This document shows positions 17,783 through 50,352 of a DNA stretch of 64,000 nucleotides, one piece after another. Within the stretch, counting starts at the first letter, position 1. Each line of letters starts with the position of its first letter. The notes beneath the pieces were generated by a model, which saw only the letters and a list, made by a program, of their open reading frames with translations, was not told the origin of the DNA and made no database searches. A program made the position numbers and the translations under genes. The stretch comes from Hanstruepera neustonica. Lineage in GTDB: Bacteria > Bacteroidota > Bacteroidia > Flavobacteriales > Flavobacteriaceae. The stretch lies in assembly GCF_002895005.1 (NCBI RefSeq), contig NZ_POWF01000007.1:1-64000 (forward strand), read 5' to 3'.

Positions 17783-17880
17783 AATGCCCCTTGCATACAC
17801 TAGCCATACCTTAGCCATACTTAAGCCATAGAGTAAACATGGTGAAGCCTTATCTAACTTGTAGTCCCTACCCTACATAC

Positions 17881-17950
17881 TTGACACAATTTGACACAGA
17901 TTGACACAGATTGACACAGATTGACACAATTTGACACAGATTGACACAAA
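17881..17950. repeat. Seven 10-base tandem repeats TTGACACARA
   Basis: Seven adjacent units, TTGACACAAT, TTGACACAGA (three times), TTGACACAAT, TTGACACAGA, TTGACACAAA. All share TTGACACA and only the last two bases vary. The spacing is close to one helical turn, so a protein could bind every copy on one face of the DNA. Confidence 0.9.
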
Positions 17951-18120
17951 ATCATGATTTTTAGGGGGTTTTGTTCGAGTGTTGTTCGAGGATTGTTCGA
18001 GAACAGGCTTTAAAAGTGCCGTTTTTAGGGAGGATTCTCGAAGGAATGTGGGAGAAACTGTATTAATACTATTAAAAACCCAGATGCATTGTAAGAATTT
18101 TAACTATTTTTAGCGGTATA

Positions 18121-18161
18121 AACATCACGGGGCTAAACGCCATTGTGTTTAGCCAATTGTT
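18121..18161 (+). repeat. attC-like imperfect palindrome upstream of an orphan gene
   Basis: AACATCACGGGGCTAAAC and GTTTAGCCAATTGTT pair with GGCTAAAC/GTTTAGCC as the perfect core and an imperfect outer part, starting with AAC and ending with GTT. This is the same architecture as the sites at 18762, 48789 and 49294, but shorter. It precedes the orphan gene at 18183. Confidence 0.5.
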
Positions 18162-18182
18162 GTGTTTAATGCTAAAAAAACT

Positions 18183-18749
18183 ATGGGGATATTTGACTTT
18201 TTAAAATCTAGAGATAATTCAAAGCCCTCGAAAAAGCATTTATCGTTTTCAAAATCAGCTTTAGAAATAATTGGAACTTTTGTAGAAGGGTATGGATTTC
18301 AATTACATAATAACAAAGTCGAAACCTATTTTACAACGATAATTTGGACAAAAAACCAACAGTATATAAAATTAACGGCATCGGATTTTCCAACAGATTA
18401 TCCATATACTTACGACATCAAACTCGGAGAAGGAAACTGCGATGATTTCTTTGAATCTGAATGGGATTCCATATCAATTTCTGCTATTCAAAGGTTAACC
18501 GAACCGAATAAAAAATACAATGGCTACGATTTTCCAAAAAAAAGTGAATTTAAAGGGAGTTTAGAGAAAGCTAAAAAGGAACTTTTAGAATTTGGAAACA
18601 ATTTTTTAAATGGAAATTTGGAATTGTTTTACAAAGCTAGAATTTTGACCAACGGGGAAAACAAACCAAAGAAAATTATTAAGAAAGATAAAAATGGGAA
18701 TGTCCTTTTTGAAGTCTTGCCGTATAACGTCAAAAAGAAAAAAGATTAA
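18183..18749 (+). CDS. Hypothetical protein, putative cassette gene
   Basis: 188-aa soluble protein that I cannot assign. It starts MGIFDFLKSRD (a common beginning of small Bacteroidota cytosolic proteins); an ATG seven codons upstream at 18162 touches the end of the attC-like palindrome. It has alternating beta strands (YFTTIIWTKNQQYIKLTASDFP) and a lysine-rich tail (KKIIKKDKNGNVLF ... KKKKD). It is clearly richer in A and T than the flanking genes and lies between two AAC...GTT palindromes, with 12 bases from its stop to the next one, so it looks like a captured single-gene cassette. Confidence 0.65.
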   Translation: MGIFDFLKSRDNSKPSKKHLSFSKSALEIIGTFVEGYGFQLHNNKVETYFTTIIWTKNQQYIKLTASDFPTDYPYTYDIKLGEGNCDDFFESEWDSISISAIQRLTEPNKKYNGYDFPKKSEFKGSLEKAKKELLEFGNNFLNGNLELFYKARILTNGENKPKKIIKKDKNGNVLFEVLPYNVKKKKD

Positions 18750-18761
18750 AAAACACTACAC

Positions 18762-18848
18762 AACACCGGCTATAGTTCCTTTAGACGTGCATAATAAAAA
18801 AGATAGTACCTTTAAATCCGTTACTGACGCCTACTTTTAGCCAGCGTT
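18762..18848 (+). repeat. attC-like imperfect palindrome
   Basis: The left end AACACCGGCTATAGT and the right end TTTTAGCCAGCGTT can pair (AACACCGGCTA against AACGCTGGCTA, 9 of 11). The left end shares the pattern AACAYYGNYTATARN with the sites at 48789, 49294 and 50206. It begins 12 bases after a stop codon and ends 30 bases before the next gene. Confidence 0.6.
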
Positions 18849-47949: not shown

Positions 47950-48040
47950 GTATCTGTATAACATAACGATGATGTTATCCACTCGATTTGGGTGTATATA
48001 TAATAAATATAACATTACTAGTGATGTTATTCATACGTTG
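47950..48040 (+). repeat. attC-like imperfect palindrome at the start of the cassette array
   Basis: The left arm (47950-47980, GTATCTGTATAACATAACGATGATGTTAT) and the right arm (48007-48040, ATAACATTACTAGTGATGTTATTCATAC) pair as an imperfect inverted repeat. Each arm is itself a small palindrome (47958-47978 and 48009-48030). The site ends with CGTTGGCAG 10-15 bases before the first cassette gene. Confidence 0.55.
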
Positions 48041-48053
48041 GCAGTAAGCTAAA

Positions 48054-48902
48054 ATGAACGAAACACATAAAAAACAAATTAGGATTCATTCAATAATTAT
48101 TTTAATTGGAATTTTAATTATCATAGTATTTGGAAATGAAACTTCTTGGTTGAGATACTTTAACATTTTAGCTATCTTCATAATATTGAGAAGTTTAATT
48201 TGGTTTATTTCTAACTCAGAAGAATTACTATTTTACATTTTTCCAACAAAAACAATCCGCGAAAAAAAACCAAAACTAAAAGATAAAATTTGGAGTCATA
48301 TATCAATGGTTTTATTTTTTTCTGGATTAGTGTTTTTAATATTTCAAATGAGCAATATTGAGAATATAATTGAGGAATCGAGTTTTTGGAAAAATTTTGG
48401 CATTTTAGGATTTAGTTTCAGTTTAGTTTGCCTGTTTTTCCTAAATAAATTTCAACCTTCAGTATTTAGTGAAAGTGGAAGAAGATATTCTGTTATTTTC
48501 GGTTTTGTTTTTGGCTTAACAGGTTTGACTATTTCAACATCAAGTTTTCTGAATAAAAAAAATGCCAAAAAAGAAACTATACAATCTGAATTTACTATTA
48601 GCCGAAAAAGTACTGGCGGAAAAAAGAATAAATCACATTGGATTTTTATTACAATAAAGCAATCTGAAAGAAGATTTGAAATAAAACCAAACTTATGGAA
48701 TAATTTAAAAGTTGGAGATAGAGTTTTAATAAAGCTACAAAAAGGATATTATGAATACGATTTTGTGACTGAAATAAAGCCTACTGCCAACACTGGCTAT
48801 AATTCAGCGTGGCTTATGCCCTATTCTGGAAAATATGTAAATTTAATCAAGCTGATTTCTTACGCGGAATGTCCTTCGGACGATTCCACGCCGAAATCAT
48901 AG
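48054..48902 (+). CDS. Hypothetical membrane protein, putative cassette gene 1
   Basis: 282 aa, AT-rich and unlike its neighbours in base use. There are about five hydrophobic segments in residues 10-165, then a soluble beta-rich tail (about 180-265: HWIFITIKQSERRFEIKPNLW, VGDRVLIKLQKGYYEYDF), which may be OB-like. I do not recognise a family. Its last 35-38 codons lie inside the attC-like palindrome at 48789, so the C-terminus (about YNSAWLMP onwards) is encoded by the recombination site itself. Confidence 0.6.
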   Translation: MNETHKKQIRIHSIIILIGILIIIVFGNETSWLRYFNILAIFIILRSLIWFISNSEELLFYIFPTKTIREKKPKLKDKIWSHISMVLFFSGLVFLIFQMSNIENIIEESSFWKNFGILGFSFSLVCLFFLNKFQPSVFSESGRRYSVIFGFVFGLTGLTISTSSFLNKKNAKKETIQSEFTISRKSTGGKKNKSHWIFITIKQSERRFEIKPNLWNNLKVGDRVLIKLQKGYYEYDFVTEIKPTANTGYNSAWLMPYSGKYVNLIKLISYAECPSDDSTPKS

Positions 48903-48913
48903 CCCAACCGTTG
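48789..48913 (+). repeat. attC-like imperfect palindrome overlapping the 3' end of cassette gene 1
   Basis: The left arm AACACTGGCTATAATTCAGCGTGG (48789-48812) pairs with the right arm CCACGCCGAAATCATAGCCCAACCGTT (48886-48912), GGCTATAATT-CAGCGTGG against GGCTATGATTTCGGCGTGG. A second hairpin (GGAATGTCC-TTC-GGACGATTCC, about 48865-48886) is nested at its right side. It begins AAC and ends GTT. It is the longest and best-paired site of the array. Confidence 0.65.
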
Positions 48914-48922
48914 TAAAATATT

Positions 48923-49282
48923 ATGACCAAACCCATAAGAATAGTTGATGACAACATTGAATTAGAACTTTATACTGGAATTTTTGGTGTATATGTTCTA
49001 GGAGGTTGGGATGTTGTTGTGGATGACTTCACTTTTGACCTGACAAATACTGAAACAGGCAGAATAATTAAACCAAAAGGTACGCAATGGAGATTACAAT
49101 CTTATGAATTTGGAAAAAGAGCAAAAAAAATAATGACTCTTGACATACCAGAAAAGGGGAATTATTTAGTTGAATTTAAAAATCAGAACAGTTTAAAAGT
49201 TTGGAAAGCGAGTTTACCAATAATTAATAGATTGATTAATCAGCCGATAGAAAAACAATGGATTCAGATTTTAATTAAATAA
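48923..49282 (+). CDS. Hypothetical protein, putative cassette gene 2
   Basis: 119-aa protein with alternating strands (IELELYTGIFGVYVLGGWDVVVDDFTFDLT) that suggest a beta-sandwich, and no signal peptide. No family recognised. It starts 10 bases after the GTT end of the preceding palindrome and stops 11 bases before the next AAC. It is AT-rich like the flanking cassettes. Confidence 0.62.
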   Translation: MTKPIRIVDDNIELELYTGIFGVYVLGGWDVVVDDFTFDLTNTETGRIIKPKGTQWRLQSYEFGKRAKKIMTLDIPEKGNYLVEFKNQNSLKVWKASLPIINRLINQPIEKQWIQILIK

Positions 49283-49293
49283 TAACGTTTTAC

Positions 49294-49362
49294 AACACCG
49301 TTTATAGCTCATTGCGGCTGAATTCCTAATCGGAATTCATTGCAAAATGCTATCATTCGGTT
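49294..49362 (+). repeat. attC-like imperfect palindrome between cassette genes 2 and 3
   Basis: The left arm AACACCGTTTATAGCTCATTGC is opposed by GCAAAATGCTATCATTCGGTT, with a perfect GAATTCC-TAAT-CGGAATTC type hairpin at the tip (about 49319-49338). It begins AAC (11 bases after a stop codon) and ends GTT. A further stem GGTTACGG...CCGCAACC follows (49359-49394) in the leader of cassette gene 3. Confidence 0.6.
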
Positions 49363-49432
49363 ACGGCAAAAATTATAACTAATTTTCCGCAACCAACCAT
49401 ACACAAAATCATAATAAACAATTATTCAAGAA

Positions 49433-50194
49433 ATGAATAAACTCTATAAATATTACTCAATTAACAATTTATCAGTCGCTTCACTTACCAATGGATATTG
49501 CTGGTACTCAAATCCAAATTCATTTAATGACCCATTTGATACAAAAATAATTCAGTGCGAACTACTTCAGGATTTAAGCTTTTCAAAAGAGAAAATATTA
49601 TGTCTCTCTGCTATCAATGACAATTTATTAATGTGGGCACATTATACCCAGTCACATAAAGGTTTTTGTATTGAATTTAGCGATCATACTGATGAAGAAC
49701 TTGTGAAATTAAAGTCAAAAGGAATCTTCCCAAATGAAAGTAATGACAAATTATCAATTGTTAGAAATGCCAGAGAAGTAGAATACAAATCTACAGAAGA
49801 AATCGAAGAATATATTGCTGATATCCCTTCTACAAATGATGAATTTTTAAAATTATACCATAATCTTGATGTAGAAAAACAAGCTGCTTTAATAAAGAAG
49901 ATTCAAAAAACTTCATTTATAAAACATAAAGATTGGAGCTACGAAAAAGAATACAGAATAATAAATACAAGTAGAAACTTAATAAGATTCCCAGGTAACA
50001 TTTCAGGTGTGTTTTTTGGGATGAATATGTCAAGTATTGAAAAAAGAATGATTGGTATGATTTTAAGTCCAGATTTAAAAAATAGAATCAAATTTTACCA
50101 AATGTATCGTCCTCATAACAAGTACTCCCTGAAGTATCGAGATTTTGATTTAAAAAAAGATTTACCTGATTTTGGAGAATCTCTGATAGCTTGA
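49433..50194 (+). CDS. DUF2971 domain protein, putative cassette gene 3
   Basis: 253 aa, matching DUF2971 over its whole length: LYKYYSINNLSVASL, WYSNPNSFNDPFDTK, LMWAHYTQSHKGFCIEF and the late KDWSYEKEYRII. The family has no fixed function; members occur scattered in accessory regions and have been met near phage-defence genes. It is AT-rich like the rest of the array and ends 11 bases before a half-site at 50206. Confidence 0.75.
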   Translation: MNKLYKYYSINNLSVASLTNGYCWYSNPNSFNDPFDTKIIQCELLQDLSFSKEKILCLSAINDNLLMWAHYTQSHKGFCIEFSDHTDEELVKLKSKGIFPNESNDKLSIVRNAREVEYKSTEEIEEYIADIPSTNDEFLKLYHNLDVEKQAALIKKIQKTSFIKHKDWSYEKEYRIINTSRNLIRFPGNISGVFFGMNMSSIEKRMIGMILSPDLKNRIKFYQMYRPHNKYSLKYRDFDLKKDLPDFGESLIA

Positions 50195-50205
50195 AAAAAA
50201 CACTT

Positions 50206-50222
50206 AACATCGACTATAGGTA
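50206..50222 (+). repeat. Half attC-like site
   Basis: AACATCGACTATAGG matches the left-end pattern AACAYYGNYTATARN of the three complete sites, 11 bases after the stop of cassette gene 3. No pairing right arm with GTT is seen within the next 130 bases, so the site may have decayed or been cut. Confidence 0.4.
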
Positions 50223-50352
50223 ATTGCTTGTTTCGCCTAGTAGGTATCAACAGCATTATATTCCTAATTTCCTGTTAAAAACAGCCTAACCTATCCCCTT
50301 TTACACCCAGCCTTTGTATCTTTAAGAAACCGCTTTCTTAAAACCCCACACG

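Follow-up and report, generated by a model that had tools for sequence, protein, structure and literature searches.

A stranded cassette array in Hanstruepera neustonica as a probable part of a flavobacterial integron-type system with an XerA-like recombinase

We describe an array of gene cassettes in Hanstruepera neustonica, in the first 64,000 nucleotides of contig NZ_POWF01000007.1 (contig C14 of our analysis; this whole stretch is called the window), where it comprises the region 47950..50222 and a single cassette near position 18762. We judge it very probable (about 0.87) that the array is a stranded part, resembling a cluster of attC sites lacking integron integrases (CALIN), of a flavobacterial integron-type cassette system in which an XerA-like tyrosine recombinase without the insert of the integron integrase IntI acts at attI, likely through the folded bottom strand of attC. 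Sequence comparison shows the parts of this system and their linkage, the complementarity of the cassette cores, the covariation and strand bias of attC, and breakpoints at GTT. In the mechanism we propose, the recombinase, whose gene lies immediately before attI and is co-oriented with the cassettes, would join attC to attI (TATAACNNGTT, located after the recombinase's own stop codon); circular cassettes would be inserted and excised at GTT, recombination would most likely proceed through the folded attC bottom strand, and an N-terminal domain of the enzyme might help to read that folded single strand. As far as sequence allows a judgment, the system appears to be an integron by its anatomy and not by its integrase, working like an integron in nearly every respect that can be seen. 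Since it lacks the insert, scores under the integron-integrase cut-off and departs from the GTTRRRY core, we regard it as an integron-type system whose integrase is of a different kind, with the window array as its CALIN.

The R'' box of a cassette is the reverse complement of that cassette's own start, because both are halves of a single site in the circular cassette. Core complementarity of this kind is present in three of the four window cassettes, over 7 to 10 nt. The first cassette of the main array starts with GTTGGCAGTA at 48037..48046 (+ strand), the 10-nt reverse complement of 48782-48791, and has its end box, TACTGCCAAC, at 48791; its open reading frame (ORF) of 282 aa (48054..48902, +; DUF7489 match weak and under cut-off) reads through the cassette's own attC to a stop at 48902. 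This attC (48789..48912, -, the bottom strand being the one modelled) scores 57.8 bits with our covariance model (E 2.3e-10) and folds at -19.2 kcal/mol on the bottom strand versus -14.7 on the top. The second cassette starts with GTTGTAAAA at 48910..48918 (+), the 9-nt reverse complement of 49288-49296, has its end box, TTTTACAAC, at 49296, and encodes 119 aa (48923..49282, +; no Pfam match); its attC (49294..49413, -; 49.1 bits, E 1.8e-8) has a decayed right end, with ATA instead of GTT. The third, with a DUF2971 ORF of 253 aa (49433..50194, +; Pfam E 1.3e-13), has lost its start core: the match covers 5 nt only, and the cassette fails the core-complement test because its start has decayed along with the right end of the preceding site. 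After it comes the left half of an attC (50206..50263, +) with the left-end motif, and homology to the sister genome G002 starts directly behind this half-site, at 50264 (flank BLAST). The single cassette starts with GTTGTGT at 18159..18165 (+), the 7-nt reverse complement of 18758-18764 (R'' box ACACAAC, ending at 18764); it carries a 195-aa ORF (18162..18749, +; no Pfam match) and ends in a degenerate attC-like site of 87 nt (18762..18848, +), running from AAC to GTT and recognized by the left-end motif and the 7-nt core, which also folds better on its bottom strand (-8.5 vs -5.5).

A relaxed left-end motif, AACANNGNNTATA (given approximately, its fourth to sixth letters being slightly narrower in the scan), has exactly four + strand matches in the window, at 18762, 48789, 49294 and 50206, and none on the - strand; 30 dinucleotide shuffles gave 0.6 matches on average, counted over both strands. 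These are the four left ends named in the original prediction, a note made from the letters of the window, and the three genes of the main array are likewise present as that note had them. Its spacings from stop codon to the next AAC (11, 11 and 12 bases) agree with the coordinates, and 11, 12 and 13 are also the commonest spacings from stop to attC in relatives (14, 12 and 8 of 79 cassettes). The statement that all sites end in GTT has to be given up: the site at 49294 extends to 49413 and not to a GTT at 49360, and the one at 50206 is a left half. That the genes lie between the palindromes is correct for the 119-aa and DUF2971 ORFs, which stop before their sites, and incorrect for the 282-aa ORF. 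The stricter left-end pattern of the note does not stand out from chance, with 36 matches at two mismatches versus a shuffle mean of 27.9, 36 being reached in 9 of 100 shuffles. Genome-wide it has 11 exact matches, versus 8 for the reversed pattern, and three of the 11 (L009, L013 and L019) look unrelated by eye. Only eight forward matches of the note's motif occur in the loci of 80 relatives, and for this reason we followed cassettes there by a core-complement walk instead.

Chance palindromes were rejected as an explanation, on the motif and core matches in the window relative to shuffles and on the core pairing in genome G018 given below. With the covariance model, nothing in the window besides 48789-48912 and 49294-49413 falls under E 1; the sites at 18762 and 50206 score at background level, and no model site lies near 47960-48039, left of the 282-aa gene, where support for a site is limited to the GTT core at 48037, both results holding with the filters off as well. 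A Rfam scan of the window at gathering thresholds gave no match. In the available portions of the literature, to which all our citations refer, a CALIN is defined by at least two attC sites within 4 kb and no integrase nearby (PMC9668308); the window has the sites at 48789 and 49294, and contig C14 gave no IntI-like match. Among four same-genus relatives, no empty counterpart of the array's locus was found, and G002 alone has the right flank gene (E <= 1e-60). The gene order of G002 differs from that of the window, the anchors being ~6 kb apart with a single model site (43.5 bits) in between, and so provides no clean comparison of presence and absence.

The idea of an array without an integrase holds for the window and not for the genome. 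As predicted, the window is free of such a recombinase as far as the integron-integrase family goes, the scan of C14 having covered that family alone, and a whole-genome search for integron integrases likewise gave no match above the family cut-off. Two proteins, encoded on contigs C9 and C15, top that search with 130 + 93 and 122 + 94 bits in two pieces, the remaining tyrosine recombinases of the genome reaching 76 + 59 bits or lower; like these, both leave model positions ~183-238 unmatched. The suggested search for IntI-like recombinases elsewhere in the genome was thus rewarded with two candidates, each followed by an attI-like site and then by cassettes. The motif TATAAC[G/C]AGTT lies within ~60 bases 3' of both genes, with differing DNA behind it. 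After the C9 attI, the DNA begins with GTTGTGCACAAT, and the R'' box of the next downstream site is GTGCACAAC. The covariance model was built from other genomes only, using 63 of 103 walked sites (118-130 nt, no N, not more than 90% alike), and detects 18 sites at E <= 0.1 in the H. neustonica genome. Eight of these lie within the initial 6.4 kb of contig C2. Neither of the note's two refuting conditions, the one on model sites and the one on breakpoints (see below), refuted the idea.

Contigs C9 and C15 end in 127 identical bases that start exactly at GTT, with zero shared bases before it, and that follow an attC in C9 and the attI in C15. Contig C6 (3,049 bases), when reversed, starts with the same 127 bases and consists of one whole cassette ending in attC, with nine bases of complementarity between its R'' box and its start. 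Its products are a 232-aa protein and, on the reverse strand, a 570-aa protein that by eye resembles an adenine methyltransferase, so that the whole looks like a restriction-modification cassette. Contigs C2 and C4 both begin with the attC of C6 and diverge right after GTTG. The simplest reading of these ends would be that the same cassette sits in each of the two integrons and that both breakpoints coincide with the crossover. Because the length shared resembles an assembly word, the two-place cassette is evidence from the assembly graph.

The same arrangement recurs in relatives. The C9 protein as query yielded 80 loci, nearly all labelled Flavobacteriaceae or Flavobacteriales, and the attI motif lies 3' of the recombinase gene in 74 of them; among the remaining six, contig ends truncate two, and four Lutibacter loci (L104, L108, L121 and L126) lack the motif. 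Across 70 loci, the information content of attI is ~2 bits at TATAAC and GTT and drops afterwards. Of 75 loci, 49 of them with at least 800 bases downstream, 43 contain the reverse complement of the first 9 bases after attI at a point 60-4,000 bases further downstream, whereas swapped cores gave a mean of 1.4 and a maximum of 7 in 200 rounds. The cassette walk, which also demanded an inner complement and GTT, passed 103 sites in 34 of 74 loci, the longest run being nine cassettes in a row after the recombinase of Tenacibaculum sp. AHE14PA (L103). In the one-contig genome G018, the walk passes 35 cassettes, and the covariance model, from which the variable core is absent, detects 58 sites within 69 kb, all on one strand; 53 of 57 neighbouring pairs there are core-matched over at least 7 nt, versus a mean of 3.3 and a maximum of 12 in 1,000 re-pairings. 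The longest ORFs lie on the array strand in 79 of 81 cases, and 22 of the 103 cassettes are without an ORF of 60 aa ending before attC.

The original prediction had proposed looking for exact breakpoints at GTT, and breaks at this position are found both between sister species and within the H. neustonica genome. Among the matches listed, sister-species homology spans the recombinase and attI. The two closest pairs, one in Confluentibacter (90.8% over 1,292 bases) and one in Maribacter (92.5% over 8,193 bases), lose it at the final T of GTT, and other pairs listed do so between -40 and +26; in L064/L071, it continues to +860, because the first cassettes of both carry the same gene. One cassette occupies position one in L071, a metagenome-assembled genome of Flavobacteriales, and position eight in Tenacibaculum L103 (89.5% over 974 bases). 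The first cassette of L064 also shares a gene with an L103 cassette (92.1% over 873 bp); since this match ends early in attC and the gene is of a widespread cation-efflux kind, only L071/L103 was counted as moved. The breakpoints, together with the cassette found in two places, bear only indirectly on the insertion and excision of cassettes that the mechanism would require. It has also to be considered whether tandem arrays of orphan genes are spread by homologous recombination between repeated palindromes, and not site-specifically. The palindromes are indeed alike and repeated, but this explanation is hardly credible given breakpoints at GTT with no shared base before them, a conserved attI beside the recombinase, and cores that vary between cassettes yet match within each. 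The note's idea of an integron-type array, possibly with divergent recombination, is supported by the core complementarity, the bottom-strand folding, the arrays adjoining recombinases and the GTT breakpoints in relatives.

When the 63 sites of the model are aligned as bottom strands, they have in common an R stem of 4 bp and an L stem of 16 bp. Between the two stems lie 4-5 bases on one side and 2 opposite. Paired cells amount to 97.1% in this alignment versus 81.0% after shuffling, and changes on both sides occur in 13 of 20 pairs. Covariation is 0.402 versus 0.107, none of 500 shuffles being as high and slid versions reaching 0.106 or less, with the structure drawn from the same alignment as the test. 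At three conserved pairs, the bottom strand has G.T where the top strand has A.C, and the structure pairs 97.1% of cells on the bottom strand versus 80.7% on the top. Under DNA energies, the bottom strand is the more stable in 77 of 79 non-redundant sites (mean -19.4 vs -17.1 kcal/mol) and in 45% of 237 control segments; the sites being related by descent, these counts are not independent trials. Integron attC sites have been described as having R and L boxes, an unpaired central spacer, a variable terminal structure, bottom-strand recombination and 9-11 nt of complementarity between R' and R'' (PMC2727003), and the sites studied here are alike in their boxes, unpaired spacer, variable end, core complement and bottom-strand bias. 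Cassette starts read GTT[G/A] with AAT at positions 10-12, and GTTRRRY fits 13 of 177 of them, in keeping with the earlier remark that the cores deviate.

The covariation and the strand bias suggest that a folded single strand is the substrate of the recombinase. Alternatively, the insert-less recombinase might move cassettes as double-stranded DNA, the hairpin being a relic or serving another role. Such a mode would suit an enzyme that is XerA-like and without the insert that reads extrahelical bases in IntI, and it would suit sites in which no conserved extrahelical base was seen: an extra base occurs at alignment column 21 in 18 of the 63 sites, with conserved G.T wobbles instead. We nevertheless regard it as unlikely, since most pairs show changes on both sides and the wobbles pair on the bottom strand only.

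Residues R232, K257, H321, R324, H347 and Y356 of the recombinase, to which we assign catalytic roles from the family, are invariant in 35 aligned relatives (the alignment left out L080, L124 (stop codon) and L092). The distance from the catalytic K to the catalytic H is 63 residues in 35 of 35 relatives and in both proteins of this genome, and 63-64 in 12 of 12 more distant insert-less proteins, versus 105 both in IntI1 and in the phylum's canonical integron integrases (14 of 14 aligned); canonical L191, the distant insert-less L043 and L051, and the genome's own Xer, L006, yielded no usable ORF and are not in this count. Relative to IntI1, the gap spans the region around residues 211-249. 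A mutation at residue 220 has been placed in the helix I2 (PMC7790495), and the gap contains this residue, so that the missing stretch holds I2. Against the integron-integrase family TIGR02249, the two proteins score 219 and 212 bits, under the NCBIfam cut-off of 265; their best family is NF040815, of XerA type, with 221 and 224 bits at a cut-off of 220. The label of this family, 'site-specific tyrosine recombinase/integron integrase', should not be taken as proof of what the proteins do. The predicted model (predicted local distance difference test, pLDDT, 81.9; predicted template modelling score 0.56; pLDDT falling below 50 over residues 350-357, the catalytic Tyr among them) matches XerA structures best (5hxy, 4a8e), followed by IntI4. 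In a midpoint-rooted tree of 45 rows, whose sole Xer row sits on a very long branch, IntI and the insert-less family form separate clades (99/93 and 99/99).

While XerA-type recombinases are the best family and structure matches of the catalytic part, the recombinases described here differ from them in adjoining cassette arrays and in their N terminus. The XerA entries matched begin at the core-binding domain, whereas our proteins add ~80-95 residues ahead of the recombinase core, with the motif WSxTLKSWY. On its own, this N-terminal domain is predicted to fold as strand-strand-helix-strand-strand-helix (pLDDT 83.6). Matches to HARP are weak in a PDB profile search (4o66, E 0.12), in which 7uek gave a better, two-fragment match, and weak in Pfam, where HARP was found in 6 of 32 proteins at E <= 1 (best 0.015) and DUF5710 in 12 of 32 (best 0.0062). 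The HARP domain binds branched and single-stranded DNA. It is possible that the N-terminal domain aids in reading the folded strand.

Linkage, together with the lack of an IntI match above cut-off in this genome, points to the insert-less recombinase as the enzyme of the system. In a sample of 395 phylum genomes, the recombinase (E <= 1e-90) is present in 14 of the 41 genomes of the same family, all 14 with model sites, compared with 12 of the 27 family genomes without it (p 4e-4). In the 80 relatives, sites are absent from 1 of 34 genomes with a recombinase match (E <= 1e-60) versus 22 of 46 without (p 4e-6); per-genome site counts in both sets are lower bounds, with 8 candidates scored per genome in the phylum sample and 43 in the relatives. 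Within the fetched stretch around the gene, model sites accompany the insert-less recombinase in 11 of 16 close cases and in 9 of 14 distant ones, and none of 15 canonical IntI loci has any (20/30 vs 0/15, p 1e-5).

These data also bear on the possibility of an ordinary integron, in which a canonical IntI, acting in trans or formerly present, builds the arrays and the insert-less recombinase is incidental. We consider it quite improbable. Canonical IntI occurs in 105 of the 395 phylum genomes, with model sites in some of the families concerned, and when two attC sites from a Polaribacter phage were assayed, one was recombined by IntI1 (PMC9892861); however, neither this genome nor any of the 41 own-family genomes has a match above the IntI cut-off, and attI and the arrays adjoin the insert-less gene, with no model sites in the stretches fetched around the 15 canonical loci. 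A plain IntI integron was rejected for lack of an above-cut-off match here, for the missing insert and for the absence of sites from the 15 IntI loci. The frequency of canonical integron integrases in the phylum is, as a separate observation, higher than the cited literature suggests.

Several results weigh against an integron-type system run by the insert-less recombinase. The enzyme is without the 42-residue IntI insert that published work treats as necessary for capture: the I2 helix is described as necessary for cassette capture, and single-strand recombination as found only in integron integrases, direct proof of I2's causal role being unavailable because deletion of I2 kills IntI1 (PMC7790495). 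The core test fails in 32 of 75 loci, mostly, not solely, from too little downstream sequence; at least two of the 43 loci that pass (L054 and L097, at less than 70 bases) appear to show local hairpins rather than attC, and in L056 and L090, which also pass, the usual L'' motif is missing. At least 19 of the 46 relatives without a recombinase match still have three or more sites, and model sites also occur in some families with canonical IntI. The linkage between recombinase and sites is therefore not exclusive, and the two systems may share cassettes.

Set beside known integrons, superintegrons and CALINs, the proposed system is alike in its attI beside the recombinase gene, its co-oriented cassettes and its GTT breakpoints. 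It differs in a recombinase that lacks the IntI insert and stays under the integron-integrase cut-off, in a core of GTTR plus AAT at positions 10-12 rather than GTTRRRY, and in a recombinase gene running in the direction of the cassettes, whereas IntI genes are usually oriented opposite to them. We found no earlier description of such a system in the open-access literature; an account in a subscription journal or a preprint is possible. The IntegronFinder 2.0 paper, in its available portions, lists one complete integron in Bacteroidetes proper, in Salinibacter, along with In0 elements (PMC9024848), and a Tenacibaculum genome scanned with that program was reported without integrons (PMC10013915, in the portion available); our nine-cassette array belongs to another Tenacibaculum. 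Elsewhere, the accessible text has Bacteroidetes in lists only (PMC8618304, PMC9668308, PMC2426708) or not among 11 taxa with attC models (PMC8352920).

The Polaribacter phage P12002L has been reported as carrying a CALIN, with no link to a flavobacterial recombinase in the available text (PMC9892861). It resembles the system described here in having model sites among its methyltransferase genes. Several such sites lie among or beside the methyltransferase genes of this lytic phage (L196, 30910-32924), and neighbouring sites show core matches of 8-9 nt by eye. The site that IntI1 recombined was attC2, via its bottom strand, and no top-strand clones were obtained (PMC9892861); our model sites may include attC2, and the two are kept apart here.

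We think it somewhat likely that a second, flavobacterial lineage of integrons recombines folded single-stranded attC without I2, either as a survivor from before I2 or as an independent solution with an N-terminal, perhaps HARP-like, domain that reads the fold. This lineage would form superintegrons of dozens of cassettes, move cassettes for restriction-modification and other functions, reach phages and plasmids, and would have been missed by tools built on IntI and GTTRRRY. Natural attC-like hairpins paired with a recombinase without I2 make the necessity of I2 directly testable. If the reading is true, marine Bacteroidota would harbour a large and so far uncounted pool of mobile cassettes.

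Further observations concern the cassettes and their surroundings. Cargo is mixed, with 43 Pfam families at E <= 1e-4 in 81 cassette proteins, led by cation efflux (4 of 81) and including DNA methylases, Fic and GmrSD. Sites of attC also come in a second size class of ~187 nt (e.g. L062, 15527-15712), which has the outer stems in common and a long inner arm of its own, and one gene (in L064 and L103) is found with either class. The Chryseobacterium plasmid NZ_CP041688.1 (L151) carries an insert-less recombinase and 3 model sites in 13 kb. On contig C10 (L012, from ~1560), an attC-like left end is followed by a long array of diverged ~24-base repeats resembling ATTGACCATGTTCTACTTTTG. Finally, near-identical blocks of short TTGACACA repeats followed by TTTTTAGGGGGTTTTGTTCGAG are seen by eye in the window at 17880-18060, upstream of the 195-aa cassette, and at 950-1110 of L002, upstream of the C15 recombinase gene.

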